DNA from: Algoriphagus yeomjeoni
GTDB taxonomy: Bacteria; Bacteroidota; Bacteroidia; Cytophagales; Cyclobacteriaceae
Direction of reading: 5' to 3'
Length of the DNA: 64,000 bases
Assembly (NCBI RefSeq): GCF_003259505.1
Contig: NZ_QLLK01000002.1
Span: 257,387-321,386 of the forward strand
Positions 37,777 through 48,184 of this stretch are shown here, piece by piece. The translations under genes were made by a program, and so were the position numbers. Each line of letters opens with the position of its first letter. The stretch's first letter is position 1. The notes beneath the pieces are model-generated. The model did no database searches. It was not told where the DNA came from and saw nothing but the letters and a program-made list of their open reading frames with translations.

Positions 37777-38982
37777 ATGGAGTCAGTTGAAATCAGAAAG
37801 TCATTAAAGCAAGATACCTTTGAAGGAGTTGATTTTTTAGAATTGGATGATTTGCTTACTGAAGAGCATAAATTGATCAGAACTTCCATCCGGGATTTCG
37901 TCAAAAAAGAGATCTCTCCCTACATAGAAGACTGGGCTCAGAAAGCCCACTTTCCTACCGAAATCGTCAAGAAATTCGGTGATGTGGGTGCTTTTGGTCC
38001 GCAAATCCCTGAGCAATATGGAGGCGGAGGATTGGATTATATCGCTTACGGACTCATCATGCAGGAGATCGAGCGGGGAGATTCTGGCATGCGCTCAACA
38101 GCATCCGTACAAGGTTCGCTGGTGATGTATCCTATCTATAAATTCGGTTCGGAGGAGCAGCGAAACAAGTACCTTCCGAAACTCGCTTCTGGAGAATTTT
38201 TAGGCTGCTTCGGACTCACCGAGCCGGATCATGGTTCCAACCCGTCTGGCATGGTGACCAACTTCAAGGACATGGGTGATCATTACTTGCTGAATGGTGC
38301 CAAAATGTGGATTTCAAATTCCCCTGAAGCTGATATCGCGGTAGTCTGGGCCAAAAATGAAGAAGGAAGAATTCACGGCTTGATCGTAGAGCGGGGAATG
38401 GAAGGTTTCACCACTCCAGAAACTCACGGCAAATGGTCGCTTCGGGCTTCCTGCACCGGAGAACTGGTTTTTGATAATGTGAAAGTGCCAAAGGAGAACC
38501 TACTTCCAGGCAAATCAGGTTTGGGTGCTCCACTGATGTGCTTGGATTCTGCGCGTTTTGGAATTGCCTGGGGAGCAATCGGAGCCGCAATGGACTGCTA
38601 TGAGTCTGCAAGAAAGTATGCCGCTGAGCGGATCCAATTCGGAAAGCCAATAGCAAGTTTTCAGCTGGTGCAGAAGAAACTCTCCGAAATGCTGACTGAA
38701 ATCACCAAAGCCCAACTCCTAGCCTGGAAAGTCGGCAAGATGATGAATGAGGGCAAAGCCAAAACGGTGCATATCTCCATGGCGAAGCGTAACAATGTAG
38801 AAATGGCACTCAACATCGCCCGTGAAGCCAGACAAATCCATGGTGGAATGGGTATCACTGGAGAGTATCCGATTATGCGTCACATGATGAACTTGGAGTC
38901 TGTGGTCACTTATGAAGGAACACAGGATATTCACTTGCTGATTTTAGGTCAGGAGATTACTGGGATTGGGGCTTTTGTATGA
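37777..38982 (+). CDS. gcdH: Glutaryl-CoA dehydrogenase-like acyl-CoA dehydrogenase
   Basis: This 401-residue flavoenzyme oxidises and decarboxylates glutaryl-CoA to crotonyl-CoA. It has the acyl-CoA dehydrogenase fold with LTEPDHGSNPSGM (FAD/substrate region), SLRASCTGELVFDNVKVP and the C-terminal GGMGITGEYPIMRHMMNLE (shortened: residues 353-370). Catalytic Glu380 lies in VTYEGTQDIHLLILGQEITG, the GCDH-specific ending. Its position opposite tryptophan dioxygenase fits the kynurenine-glutarate route. The main alternative is a paralogue with another short acyl-CoA substrate. Confidence 0.88.
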   Translation: MESVEIRKSLKQDTFEGVDFLELDDLLTEEHKLIRTSIRDFVKKEISPYIEDWAQKAHFPTEIVKKFGDVGAFGPQIPEQYGGGGLDYIAYGLIMQEIERGDSGMRSTASVQGSLVMYPIYKFGSEEQRNKYLPKLASGEFLGCFGLTEPDHGSNPSGMVTNFKDMGDHYLLNGAKMWISNSPEADIAVVWAKNEEGRIHGLIVERGMEGFTTPETHGKWSLRASCTGELVFDNVKVPKENLLPGKSGLGAPLMCLDSARFGIAWGAIGAAMDCYESARKYAAERIQFGKPIASFQLVQKKLSEMLTEITKAQLLAWKVGKMMNEGKAKTVHISMAKRNNVEMALNIAREARQIHGGMGITGEYPIMRHMMNLESVVTYEGTQDIHLLILGQEITGIGAFV

Positions 38983-39010: not shown

Positions 39011-39152
39011 AATGGCTCTTTTAAAGTAAAAATCTCTTTGAGAGGAAATTTAACTAAGTTTTCTAAGCAAAAAATAAATGAGAAATATCACCAAGTACCT
39101 GAGGATATCGGTCCTATTTGGGTAGATATCACCAATTGGGGATATACAATCG
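39011..39152 (+). pseudogene. Possible remnant reading frame cut by cassette insertion
   Basis: From 39011 an open frame without ATG runs on to a stop at 39187 and reads like protein (KISLRGNLTKFSKQK ... DIGPIWVDITNWGYTIV). The first cassette junction at 39152/39153 lies inside it, so only the part to 39152 can belong to the original sequence. I read it as the stub of a gene into which the cassette array inserted. The family is not recognised, and a chance frame remains possible. Confidence 0.35.
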
Positions 39153-39177
39153 TTGGCGGTCATTTTAAAAACAGACG

Positions 39178-40149
39178 ATGCAAGTAAAAGAAGGAGACAT
39201 TTTTATAACCAAACTTGAAAGAGACTTTTTTGGAGCTTTCAAAGTGATTAGGAAAGGTAAGTCATTTTTTGACGAATCAGAAGGTGGGACATTAATGCTA
39301 GGTGTCTTAAACTATATTGATATTGAAAAGCCAAAAATTTCCGATTCTAGGTTAAGGGAAATTCTTTGTCGTGACAGATTTTCCTACAACAATAATTATT
39401 GCATTGAATTCTTTACTGACAATGAAAAATATAATAGAATAAAGGAATATGAATTTTTAGGTAATCTTCATCTTACTGAATTTGAATTATCATTAGAATA
39501 CAAATTAGGAGATGGAAGAAAGGGAATAAAAGAAGGTTTTCCACTTTCAGGTGTAATTACTCCAGATTTCGGAAACAATATGTTTTTAGAATGGAGATGG
39601 GAAAATGAAAAAGAAGCATTCATTGAGGAAGTCGAAAAGGCAAAAATAGAATCTGAAAAACGATGGGCTGATTTAAGAAAGAAACAAATGAAGCCTAAAA
39701 AAATGATTGAAGACCACCTGTTTTGGGCAGTGATTGATAAAATTAAATGGGATTTAAATACATCAGACAGCCAAATTCAGCCTGCAATAGACTACTTGTC
39801 AAAAATGAAAGTTTCGGAAATTAAGCAATTTAAGGAAAGCCTAGCTTATAAGTTATATCTGCTTGACACAAGGGAACACGCAAGAAATATTGGTGAAGAA
39901 TCATATCAAGATGATAATAATCATTTTTCGGGCGACTACTTCCTTTATGTGAGATGTTGCGCCATTGCAAATGGGAAGGATTTCTTCGAGAAGGTTTTGA
40001 ATGACCCTAAGAAAATGCCAAAAGATTTAGATTTTGAAGAGCTTTTAAGTCTACCAGAAGAAGCCTATGAAAGAAAGACAAAAAAACAGTTGGACTTCGA
40101 TACAGGATGTGACTATGAAACTTATTCAAATTTTAAAGGGTGGGAATGA
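39178..40149 (+). CDS. Cassette gene 1: Imm26-like plus DUF4240 protein
   Basis: This 323-residue cytoplasmic protein begins with VKEGDIFITKLERDFFGAFKVIRK, a pattern like the Imm26 family of immunity proteins, and its second half (about 175-300, HLFWAVIDKIKWDL ... FSGDYFLYVRCCAIANGKDFFEKVL) matches the DUF4240 family, often found among immunity proteins to polymorphic toxins. A charged coiled segment (about 145-175) joins them. It is AT-rich compared with flanking genes, starts 25 bases after the cassette junction and is followed by an attC-like site. Immunity function is an inference from family company. Confidence 0.7.
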   Translation: MQVKEGDIFITKLERDFFGAFKVIRKGKSFFDESEGGTLMLGVLNYIDIEKPKISDSRLREILCRDRFSYNNNYCIEFFTDNEKYNRIKEYEFLGNLHLTEFELSLEYKLGDGRKGIKEGFPLSGVITPDFGNNMFLEWRWENEKEAFIEEVEKAKIESEKRWADLRKKQMKPKKMIEDHLFWAVIDKIKWDLNTSDSQIQPAIDYLSKMKVSEIKQFKESLAYKLYLLDTREHARNIGEESYQDDNNHFSGDYFLYVRCCAIANGKDFFEKVLNDPKKMPKDLDFEELLSLPEEAYERKTKKQLDFDTGCDYETYSNFKGWE

Positions 40150-40157
40150 AAAACGAA

Positions 40158-40292
40158 CCGCCAACATCACCTATACGCAAGCAGGGGTTTCGTGCTTCGT
40201 AGGACAGTTAAGTTGTAATTTTAAAATTCAGTTCTTCGTAGGAAGTTTAGTGGTAAAAATCCCTGCCTGCGTATAGCTGAGAACCGTTGGCA
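40158..40292 (+). repeat. attC-like site A (about 132 bases)
   Basis: The left arm GCCAAC-ATCACC-TATACGCA-A-GCAGGG pairs with the right arm CCCTGC-C-TGCGTATA-GCTGAGAACC-GTTGGC. The 70-base centre holds two imperfect 39-base units starting TTCGTAGGA (40196 and 40235) around TTTTAAAA. The junction G|TT is at 40286/40287. Left and right ends are those of integron attC sites in layout (AAC...GTT) but not in the flanking RYYY/RRRY consensus. Confidence 0.75.
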
Positions 40293-40331
40293 CCAATTTG
40301 AGCAGAGTCCGCAAATCATAGAAACAGTAAA

Positions 40332-41078
40332 ATGATTGACAAACCTATCCCTGCAAAAATACAATTGACACTGGCTGACAATAAATCAACTAGCGAAGAA
40401 TTTATCGGATTATCAGGTTCTCTTTATAGACAGAATCTAATTTTTTGTGAGCCAAGAGAATTAAGACGAAGCAAAAATACTTTAGAACTAATAGTTGTTT
40501 TTCGTGACAATAATTCATTCAAGACCTGGAACAAGAATGTAGAGATAAAAAAGTATTGGCTTGAAAAGTTTGATAAGACCCTTGCAAACAAACCTAAGAC
40601 AATTAGAGAAAAAAACGTTATTGTTGAGGTTGACAATGTTATAAATTGCTCTTGCGAAAATTCTGACTTTTATTTATTGCAAGGTAGGTCCTTGCAATTT
40701 GTAGACGAATTGACTTGTAATAAATGTTTAGGACAAGTCCCTTATTCTAAAGTTCCATTAGAAATTGCACTCGAAGATTGGCAAACAAAACATGAAAGAA
40801 CATATTTAAACTGGCTAGAAAGTGGACTTTTTGAAAAAGAAGCTTATAAAGAATTGACTAATTACAAAAACGGTAAACTAAATCTGGTAGGAGAAAAAAT
40901 TAGACAACAGCTTTCTGACCATTTTAAAATCCCAGTATATATTAGTTATTTTACTAAAGAGCCAGATGAAAACAATTCATGCCCAGTTTGTGGACAAAAA
41001 GGATTTGACTCTGGACTCATAAGACCAAATAGAATTTGTAAAACTTGTAATACGATATTTGGTTATGACGGAAAATAA
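40332..41078 (+). CDS. Cassette gene 2: DUF2310-like zinc-ribbon protein
   Basis: This 248-residue protein has two cysteine clusters: CSCENSDF ... CNKCLG near residues 105-133 and a C-terminal zinc ribbon CPVCGQKG ... CKTCN (about 218-241). The layout, with KVPLEIALEDWQTKHERTYLNWLESG between them, is reminiscent of the DUF2310 family (predicted zinc-ribbon, possibly nucleic-acid-binding). AT content is high. It starts 45 bases after the junction at 40286/40287 and its attC-like site is interrupted by a group II intron. Function unknown. Confidence 0.65.
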   Translation: MIDKPIPAKIQLTLADNKSTSEEFIGLSGSLYRQNLIFCEPRELRRSKNTLELIVVFRDNNSFKTWNKNVEIKKYWLEKFDKTLANKPKTIREKNVIVEVDNVINCSCENSDFYLLQGRSLQFVDELTCNKCLGQVPYSKVPLEIALEDWQTKHERTYLNWLESGLFEKEAYKELTNYKNGKLNLVGEKIRQQLSDHFKIPVYISYFTKEPDENNSCPVCGQKGFDSGLIRPNRICKTCNTIFGYDGK

Positions 41079-41087
41079 AGAAAAACT

Positions 41088-41823
41088 GGTGCCAATCGAG
41101 TAGACGGCCGTGAGCCATAAGCCCACGGTGCGCCTCTCACACCACCGTACGTACGGGTCTTCCCGATTCTCGGGACAGGCTGTATACGGCGGTTCGTAAA
41201 GCATAAGGCTGTCGCTCTTTACACCAACAACCTCTTTCCGTTACTTTTAAGATAAGGCTACACGATGGCTCCTTATCGAATTTTCACTTCACAATACGTT
41301 CGGCCCTTCATCAACTCGTGAGAACTCCTTGGTATTTACAAAGCTCAAGTCCTGTTGACTACTATGGCCTCTGCTGACTTCTCTTAGATGTTCACGACAG
41401 CCAGAGATCTCCCCAGAGCCTGTGCCGATCCCTATCGGCATAAGAGCATATTCCTTCCCTCAATATCCACTGGATCTACCATCTAAGCACATGTTGGTTA
41501 CCCAACCTTTGGACGTCAGTATGATGTGCTACCTCATCCGACCTAAATAGCCTCCGTATCCAGCACTACGTGCGCCCCCTTCGCACTCCCGTGCTCGGCC
41601 GTATTCGTTGGAACCAAGGTTTGCTGTCTCGCTTCCTTCAGTGCATGTCTCACGACAAACCACCTTGCGACTTGCTAATGCTTCGGGGCGTTACCCCCGC
41701 ACATAAGGGACTTTCACCCTCTGGAATAATTTGATATCTTCGATATCAGATGCCCATGCTGGGCACACACAATGCATATAGTGCATACCCTACGGGATAC
41801 GCACCATATGCGAACCGTTACCT
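41088..41823 (+). repeat. attC-like site B, split by a group II intron
   Basis: The left end GGTGCCA (41088-41094) is separated from the rest (41769-41823) by the intron. When the intron is removed the site reads GGTGCCAACAATGCATATAG and so on, a 62-base hairpin: GCATATAGTGCATACCC pairs with GGGATACGCACCATATGC around a TAC loop, followed by GAACC and the junction G|TT at 41817/41818. Confidence 0.72.
41095..41768 (-). mobile_element. Group II intron without reverse transcriptase ORF
   Basis: Read on the minus strand, the 674-base element starts GTGTGCCCAGCATGGGC (GUGYG-type 5' end), has domain I signatures GAGGGTGAAAGTCC and TAGCAAGTCGCAAGG, a domain V (41141-41193: ACCGCCGTATAC ... GTACGTACGGTGGT) and a domain VI hairpin, and ends CTACTCGAT, giving the expected AY 3' end. 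No reverse transcriptase frame is present, so splicing or mobility would need a maturase in trans. The insertion point on the minus strand is TTGT|TGGC in the left arm of attC-like site B. Confidence 0.8.
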
Positions 41824-41855
41824 ACAATTATAGAGGCTCTGCAAAAAACAATTAG

Positions 41856-42281
41856 ATGGAATTCATTGAAAAGATACTATACACCGCTGTTGGTGTTTTT
41901 GTGGCTTATTTCATTATAAGACAGTGGTCGGGTAAAAGTGGAAAAAAATTTGACACGACGTTTTTCAAATACTTTGCAATACTATTAATTTTAGCGTTTG
42001 GATCTGAGCTATTAGTTAGTTGGATTAGTTCGGAGCCAAAAATTGTCACTCAAACTATTGAGCAGTTAAAAGTGAACCCTAAAATAAAAAGGGAAATAGG
42101 ATCTTTTATAGGATACGGTTACAATAAAAATGAAATAATTGGAATCAAAGAATTTCCCACATCCATCGACTTTACCTTATTTGGAAGTGAAGCGGAAATC
42201 CACTTGTCAGTACTAGTGGATTCATCTGCCAATATATTTGAGGTAAAAGAATATAAAGTTGATACTCTGATCAAAGAATAA
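41856..42281 (+). CDS. Cassette gene 3: small membrane protein, Coa1/Tim21-like
   Basis: This 141-residue protein has two N-terminal hydrophobic segments (about 8-22 and 42-56) and a soluble C-terminal domain, with LKVNPKIKREIGSFIGYGY ... ALFGSEAEIHLSVLV-type spacing that resembles the cytochrome-oxidase-assembly Coa1/Tim21-like domain. The match is by eye and weak. It is AT-rich, begins 38 bases after the junction at 41817/41818 and is followed by attC-like site C. Confidence 0.55.
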   Translation: MEFIEKILYTAVGVFVAYFIIRQWSGKSGKKFDTTFFKYFAILLILAFGSELLVSWISSEPKIVTQTIEQLKVNPKIKREIGSFIGYGYNKNEIIGIKEFPTSIDFTLFGSEAEIHLSVLVDSSANIFEVKEYKVDTLIKE

Positions 42282-42315
42282 TATGACCAGAAATAAATAA
42301 AAATTGAAAACGGCA

Positions 42316-42447
42316 GGTAACAAGCGTTTGGCTCAATTGCGGTTAAAAAGATTAATTGAACATTCTAATTTAGATTAACTTTTGTGGTGTATTGGCAGTT
42401 TTATACGCCGAAATCCGCCACCGCGCCTAGCGCCAAACCGTTAATCC
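42316..42447 (+). repeat. attC-like site C (132 bases)
   Basis: The left arm GGTAAC-AA-GCGTTTGGC-TCAATT-GCGGTT pairs with AATCCGC ... GCGCCAAAC-C-GTTAAT on the right. The AT-rich centre has no shared sequence with site A beyond length and the AAACCGTT end. The junction G|TT is at 42440/42441. No matching GGATTAAC left end occurs downstream, so this appears to be the last cassette. Confidence 0.7.
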
Positions 42448-42462
42448 AGCCTCATTAAAAAA

Positions 42463-43536
42463 ATGCCCAACTCCAAAACCAAACAAACCCTCCGCATCCT
42501 TTTTATCCTTGCCAGTATAGGTTCCCTGTATTTTGTGCCTTGGCCTTTGGTGAAGGCTTGGATTTTACCCCTACCCGATACAGTTCAGGAACAGTTGGAA
42601 GAGGGAGTTGAACAGGGATTTGATGGAATGATTGTTTATGTAGATCAGGGCGGAAAGTCCCCAGAGTTTTATGCAGCTGGATGGCATGATAGGGACAAGA
42701 AAATCGCAGCTTACCCAGAAGCACTTTTTAAGATAGCCAGCATCACCAAGCTTTATGTGGCTGTTTCAGTAGCCAAACTGGTGAAGGAAGGACGTTTGTC
42801 ATTGGACAAAACATTGACGGAGTATTTTCCGGAATTGGCAGGAAGGATAGAAAACTCGGATAGAATTACGCTCAGAATGATGGCCCAGCATAGATCTGGC
42901 ATTCCTAATTTTGTCGATCATCCGGACTACTGGACCAATCCTCCAACTAACAAGGAAGAGACCTTAGGTTATGCATTGGATTTACCTGCTGACTTTGAAC
43001 CTGGAGAAGGCTATGGCTATTCCAATACGAACTATATGCTGATCTCTGACCTTATCGACAAGACCGTAGGATATCCTCACCAGCAATATATTCGGGAAGA
43101 GATTTTGACACCACTTGGACTGAAAAACACTTATACTTCCTTGAGCGAAGTGGATATGGATGAGGTGATGAGCGGATATTACGTGGGACTTGATCAGGAT
43201 TTTAAAACAGAAAACACAGGCTTAATGCTTGCTACTGCTGAAGATGTGGGTATTTTCCTTCGTGCGCTAAATGACGGTTCGGTATTCAAGGAAGGTGAAC
43301 AGGAAATCTATTCTTCCATTTACGTGTATGAACATACCGGTTTGCTTGTTGGCTATCAGAGCATTGCGAAGTATCACAAAGACATCGATACTGTCATCAT
43401 TCAGTTTAATAACACGACCAACTTTGATGGCTATGACTGGAGTTTGGCGGAAATCATCTATAACCGTGTGGTGAAGATTGTGAGAAGGGGAAGAGGAATA
43501 GATTATCAACCCTTAACAGAAAAAAACGTAAATTAG
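42463..43536 (+). CDS. Serine hydrolase, class C beta-lactamase family
   Basis: This 357-residue protein belongs to the beta-lactamase/penicillin-binding-like serine hydrolases (PF00144 type). It has an N-terminal membrane anchor (LFILASIGSLYFVPWPLV), the SxxK motif SITK with Ser93 and Lys96, and the YSN motif in YGYSNTNYM. The third HTG-type motif region is EHTGLLVGYQS. The likely substrate is a peptide or ester, not necessarily a beta-lactam. It begins 22 bases after the last cassette junction, but its base composition is closer to the chromosome, so I regard it as flanking. Confidence 0.85.
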   Translation: MPNSKTKQTLRILFILASIGSLYFVPWPLVKAWILPLPDTVQEQLEEGVEQGFDGMIVYVDQGGKSPEFYAAGWHDRDKKIAAYPEALFKIASITKLYVAVSVAKLVKEGRLSLDKTLTEYFPELAGRIENSDRITLRMMAQHRSGIPNFVDHPDYWTNPPTNKEETLGYALDLPADFEPGEGYGYSNTNYMLISDLIDKTVGYPHQQYIREEILTPLGLKNTYTSLSEVDMDEVMSGYYVGLDQDFKTENTGLMLATAEDVGIFLRALNDGSVFKEGEQEIYSSIYVYEHTGLLVGYQSIAKYHKDIDTVIIQFNNTTNFDGYDWSLAEIIYNRVVKIVRRGRGIDYQPLTEKNVN

Positions 43537-43554
43537 ATTCTAAAATTAAGTGTT

Positions 43555-43782
43555 ATGAAATCTTTAAACCTTCTAATTTCTGATTCTGAATTCGACCAAC
43601 TAGGCCTGGATAAAAATTCTATGTCTTTTTCTGAACTTATTGAAATCGTCGGAAAAAAAATCACAAAGCAAGCACTAGAGAAAAGTATTCAACTTGCAGA
43701 AAAATATGGGCTTTCAAATATGACGATGGAAGAAATAGATGAAGAAATAAACGCTCACAGGAATGCAAAAAGTAATTCTTGA
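43555..43782 (+). CDS. Antitoxin of PIN-type toxin-antitoxin pair
   Basis: This 75-residue basic-acidic protein lies directly upstream of a PIN toxin gene and overlaps it by 20 bases. The opening SLNLLISDSEFDQLGLDKNSMSFSEL (shortened: residues 3-28) and the helical C-terminus LSNMTMEEIDEEINAHR look like small antitoxins of such pairs. No classical MazE or RHH motif is certain. The role is inferred from position and size. Confidence 0.7.
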   Translation: MKSLNLLISDSEFDQLGLDKNSMSFSELIEIVGKKITKQALEKSIQLAEKYGLSNMTMEEIDEEINAHRNAKSNS

Positions 43783-44173
43783 TACGAACGTAATTGTCTC
43801 TGCGCTAATTCAAAAAAATTATCCCTTTTTAATTGTTGAGTATTGCATTGAAAGAAATGCTACAATTTGTCTGTCTAGCGAAATACTTCAAGAATATGTT
43901 GAAGTCCTTAGCCGCCCCAAATTTGCTAGATTTTTTGATTTTAAAACAAACGCTGATTTTCTAATCGCTAGATTGAGCGAGATATGCGAATTCTCTGAGC
44001 CAAATGACGAAGTGAAAATCATCAAAGATGCCCCTGACAATCGTCTATTAGAGTTGGCTCAAATTTCTAAAGCAGATTTTTTGATAACGGGAAACACAAA
44101 TGATTTTACTATGAAAACCTTTGATGACACTAGAATAGTCACACCAAAAGAATACTGGAATAATCATAAATAG
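43763..44173 (+). CDS. PIN domain toxin (ribonuclease)
   Basis: This 136-residue protein has the PIN-family acidic core: ILDTNVIVSAL with Asp7 at the N-terminus, LQEYVEVL with a conserved Glu near residue 43, and DAPDNRLLELA and ADFLITGNTNDF in the C-terminal half. Toxins of this type (COG1569-like) cleave RNA when free of their antitoxin. The antitoxin gene overlaps its start. The pair is AT-rich and sits next to the cassette region, consistent with mobile origin. Confidence 0.85.
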   Translation: MQKVILDTNVIVSALIQKNYPFLIVEYCIERNATICLSSEILQEYVEVLSRPKFARFFDFKTNADFLIARLSEICEFSEPNDEVKIIKDAPDNRLLELAQISKADFLITGNTNDFTMKTFDDTRIVTPKEYWNNHK

Positions 44174-44201
44174 CTTAATAAGTGATCTTAATTTCCCAAG
44201 C

Positions 44202-44236
44202 AAAAAACCTCATAAAATCACTTTTATGAGGCTTTT
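44202..44236. terminator. Bidirectional intrinsic terminator
   Basis: The stem CCTCATAAAA / TTTTATGAGG (44208-44217 and 44222-44231) is flanked by an A run on the left and T-rich bases on the right, between the converging toxin and metallophosphatase genes. Confidence 0.8.
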
Positions 44237-44254
44237 CTATCTCTATTACAACTC

Positions 44255-47200
44255 CTACTGCTTAATCAACTTCCCGACAAAAACCCGGTTGTCCTGACCT
44301 TCTACCATAATCACATAGGTTCCTGCAGAAAGTCTAGGAATAGCTAAAATAATAGCATTTGAACTCTGACGGATTACCTCCACGCTGGAGCTGACTTCCT
44401 TGCCATTTTGATCATAGATTCGCATGGAACTCTCTGCAAACTTCAGATCTCCCAAAACTTGAATTTCAACTTGAGAAGAAGCTGGGTTTGGGAAGATTCT
44501 CAGTTCTTCAGAAACCACAATACTAGGATTAAAAATACCTGAAATAGTCATGTTTACTGAAGCCAATCTCGCAGTGCAGCCAGCTTCATTGGTTAGCTCC
44601 ACGCTAAACTCACCCATCTGATTTACAGTCAGATTTCGCTGAGTTGCCTCTGGAATTTTCTCTCCATTTCTATACCATTGGTAAGTGAAGTTGCCTTCTG
44701 GAGCTCTCAGGATATTTCCATCCACAACGATTTCTCCGCTTGGTTTTGCTTCTGTTTTCACCTCAAACTTGGAGGTTTCCACCAGACAACCTCCAGCAAA
44801 CCTAACAATGGCATGGTAACTTCCCCCTTCCGCTATCTCAAGTGTTTTGCTGGTAGCTCCAGGAATTTCAGTTCCATTTCTTCTCCATCTGACTACTTCA
44901 AAATCACCTTCTGAAGTCAAATTCAGTGTTTTATTATCTCCAGCGCAAATAGAAGTTGGACCAGTTATTTTCACATCTGTAGTAGCAGTTTCTTTTACAA
45001 TAAAATCCGCCGTTTCAACTAGGCATCCTCCTGCAGTTCTAACAATAGCCTGATAGGTTCCTCCACTTTCGATTTCTAGGGTTTTTCCTGTTGCTCCAGT
45101 AATCTCAGTTCCGTTTCTTCTCCATTTTACCACTTCAAATGCAGCTTCAGACTTCAATGTCAACGTTTGCTTTGTCCCAACACAAATGGTTTCTGATCCA
45201 GTGATGGTTACAGGAGTGCTATTCGCAGATTCGACTACAAAATTTGGAGTTTCAACTAGGCATCCTCCTGCAGTTCTAACAATTGCCTGATAGGTTCCTC
45301 CACCTTCGATTTCTAGGGTTTTTCCTGTTGCTCCAGTAATCTCAGTTCCGTTTCTTCTCCATTTTACCACTTCAAATGCAGCTTCAGACTTCAACGTCAA
45401 CGTTTGCTTTGTCCCAACACAAATGGTTTCTGATCCAGTGATGGTCACAGGAGTGCTATTCGCAGATTCGACTACAAAATTTGGAGTTTCAACGAGACAG
45501 CCACCAGCAGTCCTAACAATTGCCTGATAGGTTCCTCCACCTTCGATTTCTAGGGTTTTTCCTGTTGCTCCAGTAATCTCAGTTCCGTTTCTTCTCCATT
45601 TCACCACTTCAAATGCAGCTTCGGACTTCAACGTCAACGTTTGCTTTGTCCCAACACAAATGGTTTCTGATCCAGTGATCGTTACAGGTGTAGTATTGGC
45701 TGCTGTCACTATGAACTCTTCTGTCTCAAACAAGCATGCACCACCATATCTGATAATAGCCTTGTAAGTTCCAGTACCTTCTATTTCCAAGGTTTTTCCT
45801 GTTGCCCCTGAGATCTCAGTCCCATTCTTTCTCCATCGTACGACTTCAAAAGCTGCTTCTGATTTTAAAGTCAATGTTTGATTTGTTCCAACACAAATGG
45901 ATTCAGAACCTGTTATGGTTACAGGTTTAGAAGTAAAGCTTTTAACTATTACTGTGGCATTTTTTTCTGTCACATTTCCTGAGAAATCGACAGCTCGAAG
46001 CTCAACTGTAATCTCCTTTCCCACATCTTCACAGGTAACTTTTAGCTTATTAAGCGTTACTTCTCTAATTCTACAGTTGTCACTTATAGCTTGAATAAAA
46101 TCCTCCGGGCTCAATTCCACTTGACCTTTTGTCAAATCAAGCTGAACTTCCAAATTCTTGGTTACAAGGATTGGTGCTATTTTATCTAAAACAACTACCT
46201 CGATTTTCTCCTCCCAAGTAGTTCCCTTATCGTCTTTGATGATCACAGTTACTTCTTGCGCACCTATATTTTCGCAGGAAAAGTCTGACTTACTTAATGA
46301 AACTGTATAGATAAAACTGATTGGCCAATTCGTGAAAACCTGCTCTGGGATTAAGGTGATTTTCCCTTCATTGTTCAGCTCCAACTCCACCCTATCCTTT
46401 ACCGTAGGCCTTGATTCGGTGGTTCGAAGGGGTATTTTCAAGCTTACTTCATCATTGTAAACCCTACGCTCAACCTTCTGCAGATTGTAGTTTTGATCTA
46501 ATACTGGAAAAATATAAACGGGTGTGAAATTAACTATGGCAAACTCCTGATCTCCTTCTACCTTTTTCTCCAAATTCACTTCCAAATGCCCATAATGCTT
46601 GCCTCCGTCTACCAAAACTGGATTGGCTCCAGATGTATTCCATTGCTCCACAGAACTCTGATCAGCTGTCCATTTTCGATAAGGATTGTAATCAAGTGTG
46701 TTAAATGGATTACCTAGCCAATCTCTCTTTTCCCCTCTCATTCCATCACCAGCTACACCTACATCATAATATAAGATCCCTTTTCCATCTCCATCCTCAT
46801 CAACAAAGCTTCGTTCGAATATTTCATCATGTCCAGAAAAGACCGCTATTACGCCATAGTTTTCCAGCAAAGGATTCAAGACCCGCAAAGGTGTTCCTAC
46901 CTGTCCAACTGAAAGTTCATGATTCATCGGCACGCCGTGCTCACCAGAGGAATAAGCAATGTGGTGATATTGAACAAAAATCAACTGTCCATTTTCCTTG
47001 GCATCTTTCAGATTTTCTTCCAGCCATAAATACTGATCGGATCCGGGTTCAAAACCACTTAAATCATTACCCCCGGCAGCATTGTATTGAGCAAGCGTGT
47101 AGTTTTCTTGAGTATCAGTACCCGGAACAGTGTATTGCTTGCCTGTTAGCTTAGGTTGTCCTTCAAAATCGGCGGCGGTTTGGTCAGGAGTGCCGTTACT

Positions 47201-48184
47201 GGAATCCAGTGTCAAAATAGTCACAGGACCATAATCTACTCGATAGTAGCTCTTTTTATGCTTTTGAAGTGGATCTTCAATTGGTGTTTCGAAATAAGTA
47301 TGAAAACGATTCCTACCTACAACAGGCAAGAATTCACCTCTTTCGTTTGTTCCATATCCTCCACTAATTGCTCCATAAGACTCCCAATTTCCTAGTGCTG
47401 GAATAATTGCGTAGCTAGACAAACCATTGCCCATGGTTCCTGCATTTTGTCTAAAAAACTCATCCCATCCCGGCTGATAGCCACCTCCCTGTACCAAATC
47501 CCCCGGCATTATGATGAAGTTCGGGTTTCGGGAATTTATGACTTTTAGGTTTTCATTATAGCCAACTTGCTCTGTCAACATGTAATTTGGAATCTCAATC
47601 CCCTGCTCAACGGTGCTACCAAACTTTTGCTTCCAAAGTTCTGGGACAGTTGTAATGGGACGAAATATTGGGTTTCCAGGGTACCAAGCCCTATTTGTAA
47701 CTCTTCCTCTAGGATCAGTCTCAGAATCAGCCAAAGCCATAAACCTAATCTTATCCCAATTAGCCTTGGAGGCTGGCATGGTAAAAGCACCAGCATAGTC
47801 CTCACCTGCAAGTTTTACCAAATAGTTTACAACAGTACCTGCGGGTAACTCAATTGGCATCCTGTAGCGAAAAACCTCGTCACTTTCTATCCAACTCCCC
47901 TGCTCCAAACCTGTAAGTACTTGACTTTTTTCTTGGGATGTATAGTAAATATTTGGGACAGGTTCGCCTGTGACATCACCTTCATAGAGTACGTTTCCTG
48001 ATTCTCCTGTAAGCTTTATCGAACTGGAAGTCAATGAATTACTAAACCAAGTTAATTGCATCTTACCCTCTCCATAAACTTGCAAATAGGGATAGATTCT
48101 ATAGGGGTTTACTTCAGTGACTTTTAGGGACATAAAAGTCAAGCATATCAACAACCCAAAACTAACTAGCAGATGCTTTTTCAT
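44255..48184 (-). CDS. T9SS-exported metallophosphatase with Ig-like repeats
   Basis: This 1309-residue secreted protein has a signal peptide, an N-terminal fibronectin-like segment (YPYLQVYGEGKMQLTWFS) and a calcineurin-like phosphoesterase domain (about 145-480) with ALADSETD, IMPGDLVQGG, LGNWES, QYHHIAYSS and FSGHDE as metal-site blocks. Two beta domains with EVTVIIKD-type ends follow. Then come five 79-residue Ig-like repeats (about 750-1145) and a degenerate sixth. The last 95 residues (ELRIFPNPASSQ ... GTYVIMVEGQ) are a type IX secretion sorting domain, so it ends up outside or on the surface. Substrate unknown. Confidence 0.9.
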   Translation of the reverse strand: MKKHLLVSFGLLICLTFMSLKVTEVNPYRIYPYLQVYGEGKMQLTWFSNSLTSSSIKLTGESGNVLYEGDVTGEPVPNIYYTSQEKSQVLTGLEQGSWIESDEVFRYRMPIELPAGTVVNYLVKLAGEDYAGAFTMPASKANWDKIRFMALADSETDPRGRVTNRAWYPGNPIFRPITTVPELWKQKFGSTVEQGIEIPNYMLTEQVGYNENLKVINSRNPNFIIMPGDLVQGGGYQPGWDEFFRQNAGTMGNGLSSYAIIPALGNWESYGAISGGYGTNERGEFLPVVGRNRFHTYFETPIEDPLQKHKKSYYRVDYGPVTILTLDSSNGTPDQTAADFEGQPKLTGKQYTVPGTDTQENYTLAQYNAAGGNDLSGFEPGSDQYLWLEENLKDAKENGQLIFVQYHHIAYSSGEHGVPMNHELSVGQVGTPLRVLNPLLENYGVIAVFSGHDEIFERSFVDEDGDGKGILYYDVGVAGDGMRGEKRDWLGNPFNTLDYNPYRKWTADQSSVEQWNTSGANPVLVDGGKHYGHLEVNLEKKVEGDQEFAIVNFTPVYIFPVLDQNYNLQKVERRVYNDEVSLKIPLRTTESRPTVKDRVELELNNEGKITLIPEQVFTNWPISFIYTVSLSKSDFSCENIGAQEVTVIIKDDKGTTWEEKIEVVVLDKIAPILVTKNLEVQLDLTKGQVELSPEDFIQAISDNCRIREVTLNKLKVTCEDVGKEITVELRAVDFSGNVTEKNATVIVKSFTSKPVTITGSESICVGTNQTLTLKSEAAFEVVRWRKNGTEISGATGKTLEIEGTGTYKAIIRYGGACLFETEEFIVTAANTTPVTITGSETICVGTKQTLTLKSEAAFEVVKWRRNGTEITGATGKTLEIEGGGTYQAIVRTAGGCLVETPNFVVESANSTPVTITGSETICVGTKQTLTLKSEAAFEVVKWRRNGTEITGATGKTLEIEGGGTYQAIVRTAGGCLVETPNFVVESANSTPVTITGSETICVGTKQTLTLKSEAAFEVVKWRRNGTEITGATGKTLEIESGGTYQAIVRTAGGCLVETADFIVKETATTDVKITGPTSICAGDNKTLNLTSEGDFEVVRWRRNGTEIPGATSKTLEIAEGGSYHAIVRFAGGCLVETSKFEVKTEAKPSGEIVVDGNILRAPEGNFTYQWYRNGEKIPEATQRNLTVNQMGEFSVELTNEAGCTARLASVNMTISGIFNPSIVVSEELRIFPNPASSQVEIQVLGDLKFAESSMRIYDQNGKEVSSSVEVIRQSSNAIILAIPRLSAGTYVIMVEGQDNRVFVGKLIKQ
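44744..45928 (-). repeat. Five tandem 237-base repeats inside the metallophosphatase gene
   Basis: The unit is 79 codons (VTITGSETICVGTK at its start, GGCLVET near its end). The three middle copies (about 44990-45700) are almost identical in DNA, with an exact 237-base period for the segment GATTTCTAGGGTTTTTCC at 45071, 45308 and 45545. The outer copies are diverged. Such a pattern indicates recent expansion by recombination within the gene. Confidence 0.9.

Follow-up and report, generated by a model that had tools for sequence, protein, structure and literature searches.

The window analysed here is a stretch of 64,000 nucleotides (positions 257387–321386 of contig C2) in the genome of Algoriphagus yeomjeoni (G000; 4.97 Mb, 30 contigs). 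Between positions 39054 and 42442 of the window, an attI-like site is followed by three one-gene cassettes, and this locus is very probably an integrase-less platform of an integron-like system of Bacteroidota, whose recombinase would belong to a tyrosine recombinase family represented in the same genome by a gene on contig C23. At the level of sequence, the evidence covers an attI, cassettes, a junction rule, a change of content at one attI and an association of the recombinase with the arrays, along with the absence from this recombinase of the insert specific to integron integrases (IntI) and the presence of HARP-like repeats. Our first-pass annotation had proposed an integron-like cassette cluster without an adjoining integrase, which is upheld by the junctions, by an attC model and by the lack of recombinase matches in the window: none of the genome's matches to TIGR02249 (the profile used for canonical IntI) or to the recombinase family falls inside it.

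The G of the G|TT junctions lies at positions 39152, 40286, 41817 and 42440, and each cassette starts with the reverse complement of the left end (R'') of its own attC, over 9 (GTTGGCGGT), 10 (GTTGGCACCA) and 7 (GTTACCT) bases, respectively. These three pairings, as well as the differences among the three left ends, had been noticed in the first-pass annotation and were found again at all three units when re-measured. For the second unit the ten bases are correct, but the match is complete only once a group II intron (41095–41768), overlooked at first and revealed by Rfam matches within the palindrome, is excised in silico, because in situ the intron splits the AAC of R''. As for the AACCGTT right ends, they are indeed present, but the heptamer is unspecific (299 occurrences in the genome) and was dropped as a marker by itself; it becomes specific only when taken together with the hairpin and the junction rule. 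The window sites do fold, with the bottom strand at −32.2 kcal/mol and the top strand at −26.2 kcal/mol for attC1 (−21.3 and −18.5 kcal/mol for attC3), and they are not unique, since our attC covariance model (R1) yields 10 matches in the genome, two of them in the window. R1 was built from 23 sites, i.e., 21 of the 25 attCs of the recombinase loci described below (L071, L105, L130 and L135 were left out of the alignment for their length), plus attC1 and attC3, which hence match by construction (Table 1). An earlier attC finder, predating the recognition of the intron and of longer loops, recovered attC1 only and was abandoned.

The intron lies on the minus strand and matches Rfam families RF02001 and RF01998, its ends being set by exon logic. 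Its removal in silico leaves TGGTGCCAAC and a 17-bp hairpin, which make up a near-perfect attC, nearly identical to one found in Algoriphagus sediminis (L071:13094-13151). A first guess at the intron start (GTGCGTATCC) left no hairpin and was discarded, while the start retained (GTGTGCCC) agrees with both the Rfam matches and the intron-less homologue. Related intron copies share the insertion point (GT ends 5/5 five-prime exons and T begins 8/9 three-prime exons), and a full-length relative in a congener (G009) encodes a 365-aa protein with RVT_1 and GIIM domains and no endonuclease match in Pfam. The window intron resembles group IIC-attC introns in being inserted into the bottom strand of an attC, opposite to the cassette genes, an orientation given as typical in a passage of PMC7923331. 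Unlike them, it sits in the R'' box, at GT|T.

According to the TIGR02249 search, no canonical IntI above cut-off is encoded in the genome, the best matches being located on C23 (a tyrosine recombinase of 454 aa) and on C1 (a degraded copy). The C23 protein reaches 204 bits with TIGR02249 (cut-off 265) and 207 bits with NF040815 (cut-off 220), hence below both thresholds. Its stop codon is followed by an attI-like stretch, G|TT and a cassette in which weak matches to leucine-rich repeats were seen. The start of this cassette pairs with its own R'' over 10 bases, and its attC, located close to the end of the contig, terminates in AACCGG and has no GTT. This 3' flank of the recombinase is 88% identical to the window attI up to G|TT and 51% identical after GTT. 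Moreover, the window attI is directly preceded by a short stretch that aligns with the end of the C23 recombinase and may, judging from only about 10 bases, be the leftover of a family recombinase. The annotation had suggested that a diverged recombinase might be at work; a probable candidate, from a family devoid of the IntI-specific domain, does exist, but its gene is on another contig. Algoriphagus and relatives are the nearest named carriers of C23-type recombinases. A second, decayed array was observed at G000:C1:43435-46867 (L029), with a recombinase interrupted by several stops, cassette-like genes and two group II introns at R''.

With two R1 matches and the intron-split attC2 (at least two attC within 4 kb) and no integrase nearby, the array corresponds to a cluster of attC sites lacking integrases (CALIN). 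This label, used in the annotation, is correct as regards the missing integrase gene but leaves out the attI-like site at 39054–39152, and the locus is therefore better described as a platform that lacks its integrase than as a bare CALIN. In the congener G009, another gene follows the same attI, so the three cassette genes are not fixed in all relatives: the two genomes match each other through the gene that precedes the array and through the attI (77% over 1,980 bp), their homology ends at window position 39154, at the G|TT, and it resumes at 44255, with a different gene in between. By blastn, the attI was seen in two of 21 same-genus loci (the window and G009), while none was found behind the neighbouring gene in the other 19, for which the search covered flanks of up to 1.5 kb. 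Comparable switches occur in named pairs of loci. In Cognataquiflexum rubidum and nitidum (L062/L063), the recombinases are 98% and the attI 100% identical, and the next 120 bp are 56% identical; in Mongoliitalea and Belliella (L064/L065), the recombinases and the attI are both 94% identical and the sequence that follows 53%. Such values of 53–56% are about what we would expect for unrelated sequences under the aligner used. Finally, two cassettes are common to different arrays, at differing positions, and their ends coincide with G|TT or lie no more than 4 bp from it; blast matches between arrays number only three in all, and three of their six ends are 10 bp or less from a junction (0.15 expected), which is too few for a statistic.

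The taxonomic distribution of the system was examined by scanning with 15 family proteins, of which the best 80 of 397 loci were taken. The titles of these 80 loci all refer to Bacteroidota, except one labelled uncultured bacterium, and among the listed family proteins one is named by its source as a Planctomycetota metagenome-assembled genome. In many loci, an attI-like inverted repeat ending in GTT can be seen by eye behind the recombinase stop codon. A first cassette starting with the complement of its own R'' over at least 9 bases was found in 24 of the 53 loci with at least 700 bp downstream, vs. 2/96 control flanks; at a threshold of 7 bases, these figures become 29/53 and 11/96, and four of the 7–8-base matches look like chance. 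R1 gives 91 matches in these loci (L060–L139), 21 of them training sites, and all 91 lie on the recombinase strand, two being upstream of the recombinase (L080, L098). Conversely, the full-length family profile, applied to 24 genomes hand-picked from the attC-positive list, recovered a family recombinase in 20 of them. Of the 26 matches of at least 200 bits, 23 were retained as family regions (the two of the own genome were kept apart and G086:C16, with 120 bp of contig left, was omitted), fragments below 200 bits and a 150–184-bit group of G233 being excluded. An attC was found in 20 of these 23 regions (up to 20 kb), with 82/83 matches on the recombinase strand. The two locus collections overlap at one point, L220 being the same sequence as L075 over 11,886 bp. 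Across the phylum as a whole (the GTDB phylum, which is broader than the Bacteroidetes of older surveys), R1 matches occur in 146/296 genomes, including all 15 genomes with a match to the N-terminal profile of the family (p 1.7e-5).

In a subgroup of the recombinases, a gene for a single-stranded-DNA-binding protein lies directly downstream (L084 11391–11753 and L104 4642–5004, confirmed with TIGR00621; L082, L085–L089 and L132 by eye), so that the attI-like site is not directly behind the recombinase gene. Loci of this subgroup with attC matches further downstream are L084, L088, L089, L104 and L132, and such a neighbour fits a single-strand substrate.

Junctions and stems were counted on R1 matches, about two dozen weak or isolated ones being left out. 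The junction rule (at least 6 bases beyond GTT) holds for 55 of 75 neighbouring attC pairs, vs. a mean of 1.5% and a maximum of 6.8% in controls where R'' was taken from another cassette. The attCs combine complementary R'' and R' boxes with an inner imperfect hairpin, and 16 of 20 stem pairs change on both sides (covariation score of 0.561 vs. 0.155 when shuffled and 0.06 to 0.14 when slid); the sites were chosen by hairpin score, a criterion biased towards pairing, though not towards changes on both sides. The stem profile was drawn from 60 pairs identical over 6 bases, in which pairing at positions 1–6 is 100% by selection, while that from position 7 onward is not so constrained: it amounts to 97–98% at positions 7–9, 52% at position 10, 70–85% at positions 12–15 and 2% at position 16. 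The outer stem is thus 15 nt long, with position 11 paired in 0/60 cases and occupied by an A on the cassette-start side in 60/60. In a separate set of first cassettes, position 11 is paired in 0/29 and is an A in 28, the remaining row being read one base off. The commonest combination, A/G, becomes a T–G wobble when the bottom strand is considered, which may contribute to the choice of strand; the bottom strand is the more stable one in 26/26 free-cassette sites, by a median of about 4.6 kcal/mol. Canonical IntI comparison loci (seven chained entries, at most three independent) also pair beyond base 7, so neither the long stem nor the A at position 11 need be peculiar to the system. The cores do not follow the RYYYAAC/GTTRRRY consensus, position 4 being a purine in 60/60 and position 5 in 30/60 only (30 G, 23 T, 7 C). 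Past the stem, cassette starts are A-rich (54/60 at position 16, 48/60 at position 19), and a GACA-like motif is frequent, by eye, from position 16.

Regarding the recombinase itself, the family's best profile match among PDB entries is 2a3v, the integron integrase of Vibrio cholerae (170.6 bits), of which residues 183–238 remain unaligned, vs. about 18 residues in the family. In a passage of PMC3053210, helix alpha-I2 is described as contacting the region of the extrahelical base G20'', with K209, Y210 and W219 listed. These three residues fall in that unaligned segment of 2a3v, and no IntI-specific domain is found near patch III. The spacing from the catalytic R to HxxR is 91–96 in the family (measured in 76/96 proteins), 98–99 in XerC/D (17 proteins) and has a median of 133 in canonical IntI (7/8 measured, one being a misread of 13). 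At the other end of the protein, N-terminal repeats resemble the HARP domain. Ten of 15 members match Pfam HARP at E values up to 0.1 (best 0.00056), the match being below the curated cut-off in the member displayed, while four shorter members have no Pfam HARP match. The HARP structure of SMARCAL1 (4o66) is recovered by sequence profile (E 1.5e-5), whereas the fold comparison of the repeats is weak (4o66 at rank 8, E 0.17); the full-length predicted model has a predicted TM-score of 0.42 and an uncertain domain arrangement. With a hidden Markov model of the repeat, one copy or more is detected in 89/96 proteins of the family (19 of the 96 also served to train the model), vs. 0/8 IntI and 0/17 XerC/D. 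HARP domains bind fork or single-/double-stranded DNA. They also mediate the annealing-helicase activity of SMARCAL1, as stated in a passage of PMC9243424. Taken together, these properties lead us to propose that the HARP-like repeats help read the folded attC, a proposal to which we give about equal chances of being right or wrong; the repeats might then stand in for the missing IntI helix in reading the folded single strand.

Our model of the locus would be the following. Provided in trans, a tyrosine recombinase from the C23 family would bind the folded bottom strand of the attC on a free circular cassette and recombine it with the double-stranded attI at G|TT. Such an exchange, presumably catalysed by the family on the bottom strand, would leave the first bases of each cassette complementary to its own R''. 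Beside the window attI, the integrase gene would have been lost down to its stop codon, while the C23 copy would have persisted beside its own attI and cassette.

A member of the family also lies next to a tetracycline resistance gene. A start-truncated member, 65% identical to the C23 protein over residues 208–452 and annotated as TnpF or recombinase, is carried by plasmids, those of Acinetobacter among them (best 8 of 534 records), 28 of the 534 records of the plasmid search showing 60–80% identity. It is followed by tet(X3) in L278 5058–7247 (FJ012881.1), L279 (NZ_CP041297.1) and L280 (NZ_CP104735.1), which share the tet(X3) stretch and are not independent. In L278, the recombinase and tet(X3) are separated by an attI-like palindrome and a GTT with A at position 11, and a cut-off attC-like stretch comes after tet(X3) (R1 E values of 0.0024 in L280 and of 0.042 in L278 and L279). 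In the passages concerned, PMC7473080 calls for testing whether the neighbouring XerD moves tet(X), PMC8635130 names the neighbour XerD with an emphasis on ISCR2, and PMC11194056 lists XerD beside tet(X) as a mobile element.

Several results weigh against the system as we describe it. The junction rule fails at 6 bases in 20 of the 75 pairs, including the window pair that flanks the split attC2. In G009, no attC was found behind the gene at the shared attI, and an exact search for the R'' of this cassette gave no match. The three window cassette proteins have no tblastn match in the other array loci compared. Moreover, the full-length profile detects no family gene in four of the 24 attC-positive genomes (G182, G304, G162, G115), no attC was found in three of the 23 family regions (L205, L217, L218), and in L216 the attC lies on the opposite strand only. 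Likewise, only 15 of the 146 attC-positive genomes match the N-terminal profile (at most 12 candidates being scored per genome). Behind tet(X3), the attC-like R'' fails to match the start of the tet(X3) unit, which is therefore at best a rearranged cassette. To these must be added the canonical IntI found above cut-off in 85/296 phylum genomes (84 of them outside the class of Algoriphagus) and in 5 of the 15 genomes that match the N-terminal profile, which leaves room for an action of IntI in trans in places.

This last point, together with a G|TT geometry such as that of integrons, might suggest that the window is a CALIN built by a canonical IntI, acting in trans or since lost, with the C23 recombinase as an unrelated neighbour. 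We regard this as unlikely, as no IntI above cut-off is present in the own genome or in the 55 attC-positive genomes of its class, as the arrays lie downstream of C23-family genes and on the same strand, and as R1 matches and canonical IntI show no positive association (34 genomes have both, odds ratio 0.59, p 0.054). The recurrence of the hairpins, their targeting by introns and the eroded look of some arrays would also be compatible with repeat elements (repetitive extragenic palindrome-like hairpins or intron targets) sitting between genes without cassette mobility. Yet the match between start and R'' is specific to each cassette, the content changes at G|TT next to near-identical attI, and two cassettes recur at different positions in distinct arrays, which makes this explanation very unlikely.

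A third possibility stems from the annotation of the recombinase as XerD-like and from the resemblance of its catalytic region to XerA: the units would be Xer/dif-type modules, i.e., genes flanked by XerC/D sites and moved by housekeeping Xer enzymes. In control regions around 17 of 18 XerC/D-like matches from the same attC-positive list (G112:C5:16533, near an array, was excluded), attC was found in 0/17, far from the proportion in family regions. The sites do not have a fixed core but form hairpins whose outer stem is specific to each cassette, and the family does not cluster with the housekeeping recombinases: in our tree, XerC/D form a separate clade (support 100/100), as do canonical IntI (100/99), and the family branches on the IntI side. 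Altogether, Xer/dif modules appear extremely unlikely. The family forms one group at 67/81 only, with long branches flagged, and it may therefore be either the stock from which IntI derives or a sister of IntI.

The features of the locus and of its surroundings are collected in Table 1. The left-hand acyl-CoA dehydrogenase gene has a DNA match in 36 of 38 genomes searched, the own genome included; in a congener (G020:C1:1273619-1276065; L247, L277), the 3' end of this gene was seen to be duplicated about 1.1 kb downstream. To the right, the segment beginning at 42441 is not at this place in G009, where synteny is back at 44255. Two small overlapping genes within it (43555–44173) are, judging from their translation, presumably a PIN-type toxin–antitoxin pair. 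Further on (44255–48184), a 1309-aa gene has repeated segments, and its G009 homologue (1387 aa) shows shifted repeat matches, which suggests that the number of repeats has changed.

Table 1. Features of the cassette locus and of its neighbours, in window coordinates.
Feature	Positions	Strand	Basis
Acyl-CoA dehydrogenase gene, chromosomal left neighbour	37777..38982	+	Pfam
Putative family-recombinase remnant (last codons and stop; gene otherwise lost)	39044..39053	+	Alignment with end of C23 recombinase
attI-like site, insertion point G|TT at 39152|39153	39054..39152	+	88% identity to 3' flank of C23 recombinase
Cassette 1 (gene 39178–40149, DUF4240)	39153..40286	+	Junctions, open reading frame (ORF), Pfam
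attC1	40157..40288	+	R1, 105.7 bits (R1 training site)
Cassette 2 (gene 40332–41078, DUF2310-like), intron within its attC	40287..41817	+	Junctions, ORF, Pfam
attC2, left part (R'' side)	41087..41094	+	Folding / junction comparison
Group II intron without ORF (674 bp), in the R'' box of attC2 (bottom strand, GT|T)	41095..41768	-	Rfam
attC2, right part	41769..41819	+	Intron-less homologue, folding
Cassette 3 (gene 41856–42281, no confident family)	41818..42440	+	Junctions, ORF, Pfam
attC3	42313..42442	+	R1, 112.9 bits (R1 training site)
Segment with beta-lactamase-family gene (42463–43536) and two small genes	42441..44254	.	Pfam; G009 synteny

Beyond the window, we slightly favour the broader view that Bacteroidota widely harbour a second integron lineage, which acts on folded single-stranded attC, is devoid of the IntI helix and instead uses HARP-like domains (of the kind that bind fork or single-/double-stranded DNA) with a 15-nt stem bearing an unpaired A, and that the XerD encoded beside tet(X) are its integrases. 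If so, mobile tet(X3) would derive from a cassette that escaped from an integron of this lineage, and the hitherto unexplained XerD near tet(X) resistance genes would gain a role. It would also follow that a large gene-exchange system has been overlooked, given the share of phylum genomes with R1 attC-like sites, and that structure-guided recombination can do without the IntI-specific helix. The standard tool identifies integron integrases through the IntI-specific domain, as a passage of PMC9668308 has it; in the part of PMC9024848 concerned, one Bacteroidetes genome, that of Salinibacter ruber, is named by IntegronFinder 2.0 as having a complete integron, earlier complete integrons being from Chlorobi and Ignavibacteriae. 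Among the matches listed in a search of the open-licence PMC literature (preprints not included), no description of a C23-type integron system was found.

By a definition resting on the IntI domain, the system is not an integron, although the case that it works like one is strong on the evidence of its sequences. Compared with CALIN, the window array likewise has no adjoining integrase gene, but its attI-like site brings it closer to a platform that lost its integrase. With XerA/XerD-like recombinases, including those called XerD or TnpF beside tet(X), the C23 family shares the catalytic fold, while differing in its occurrence with attI and cassette arrays. The closest parallel lies with the integrons based on IntI (class 1 and sedentary chromosomal), which likewise have an attI adjoining the integrase gene, single-gene cassettes arrayed in tandem with a common orientation, the G|TT insertion point, an R'' complementary to the cassette start and a folded attC with a more stable bottom strand. 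In classical integrons, the integrase gene is usually directed away from the array, whereas in the Bacteroidota system it runs in the same direction. The latter further departs from integrons in the cores, which deviate from GTTRRRY, and in an integrase without the IntI-specific insert and with HARP-like N-terminal repeats; the 15-nt outer stem with its unpaired A at position 11 can be set against at most three independent canonical loci.

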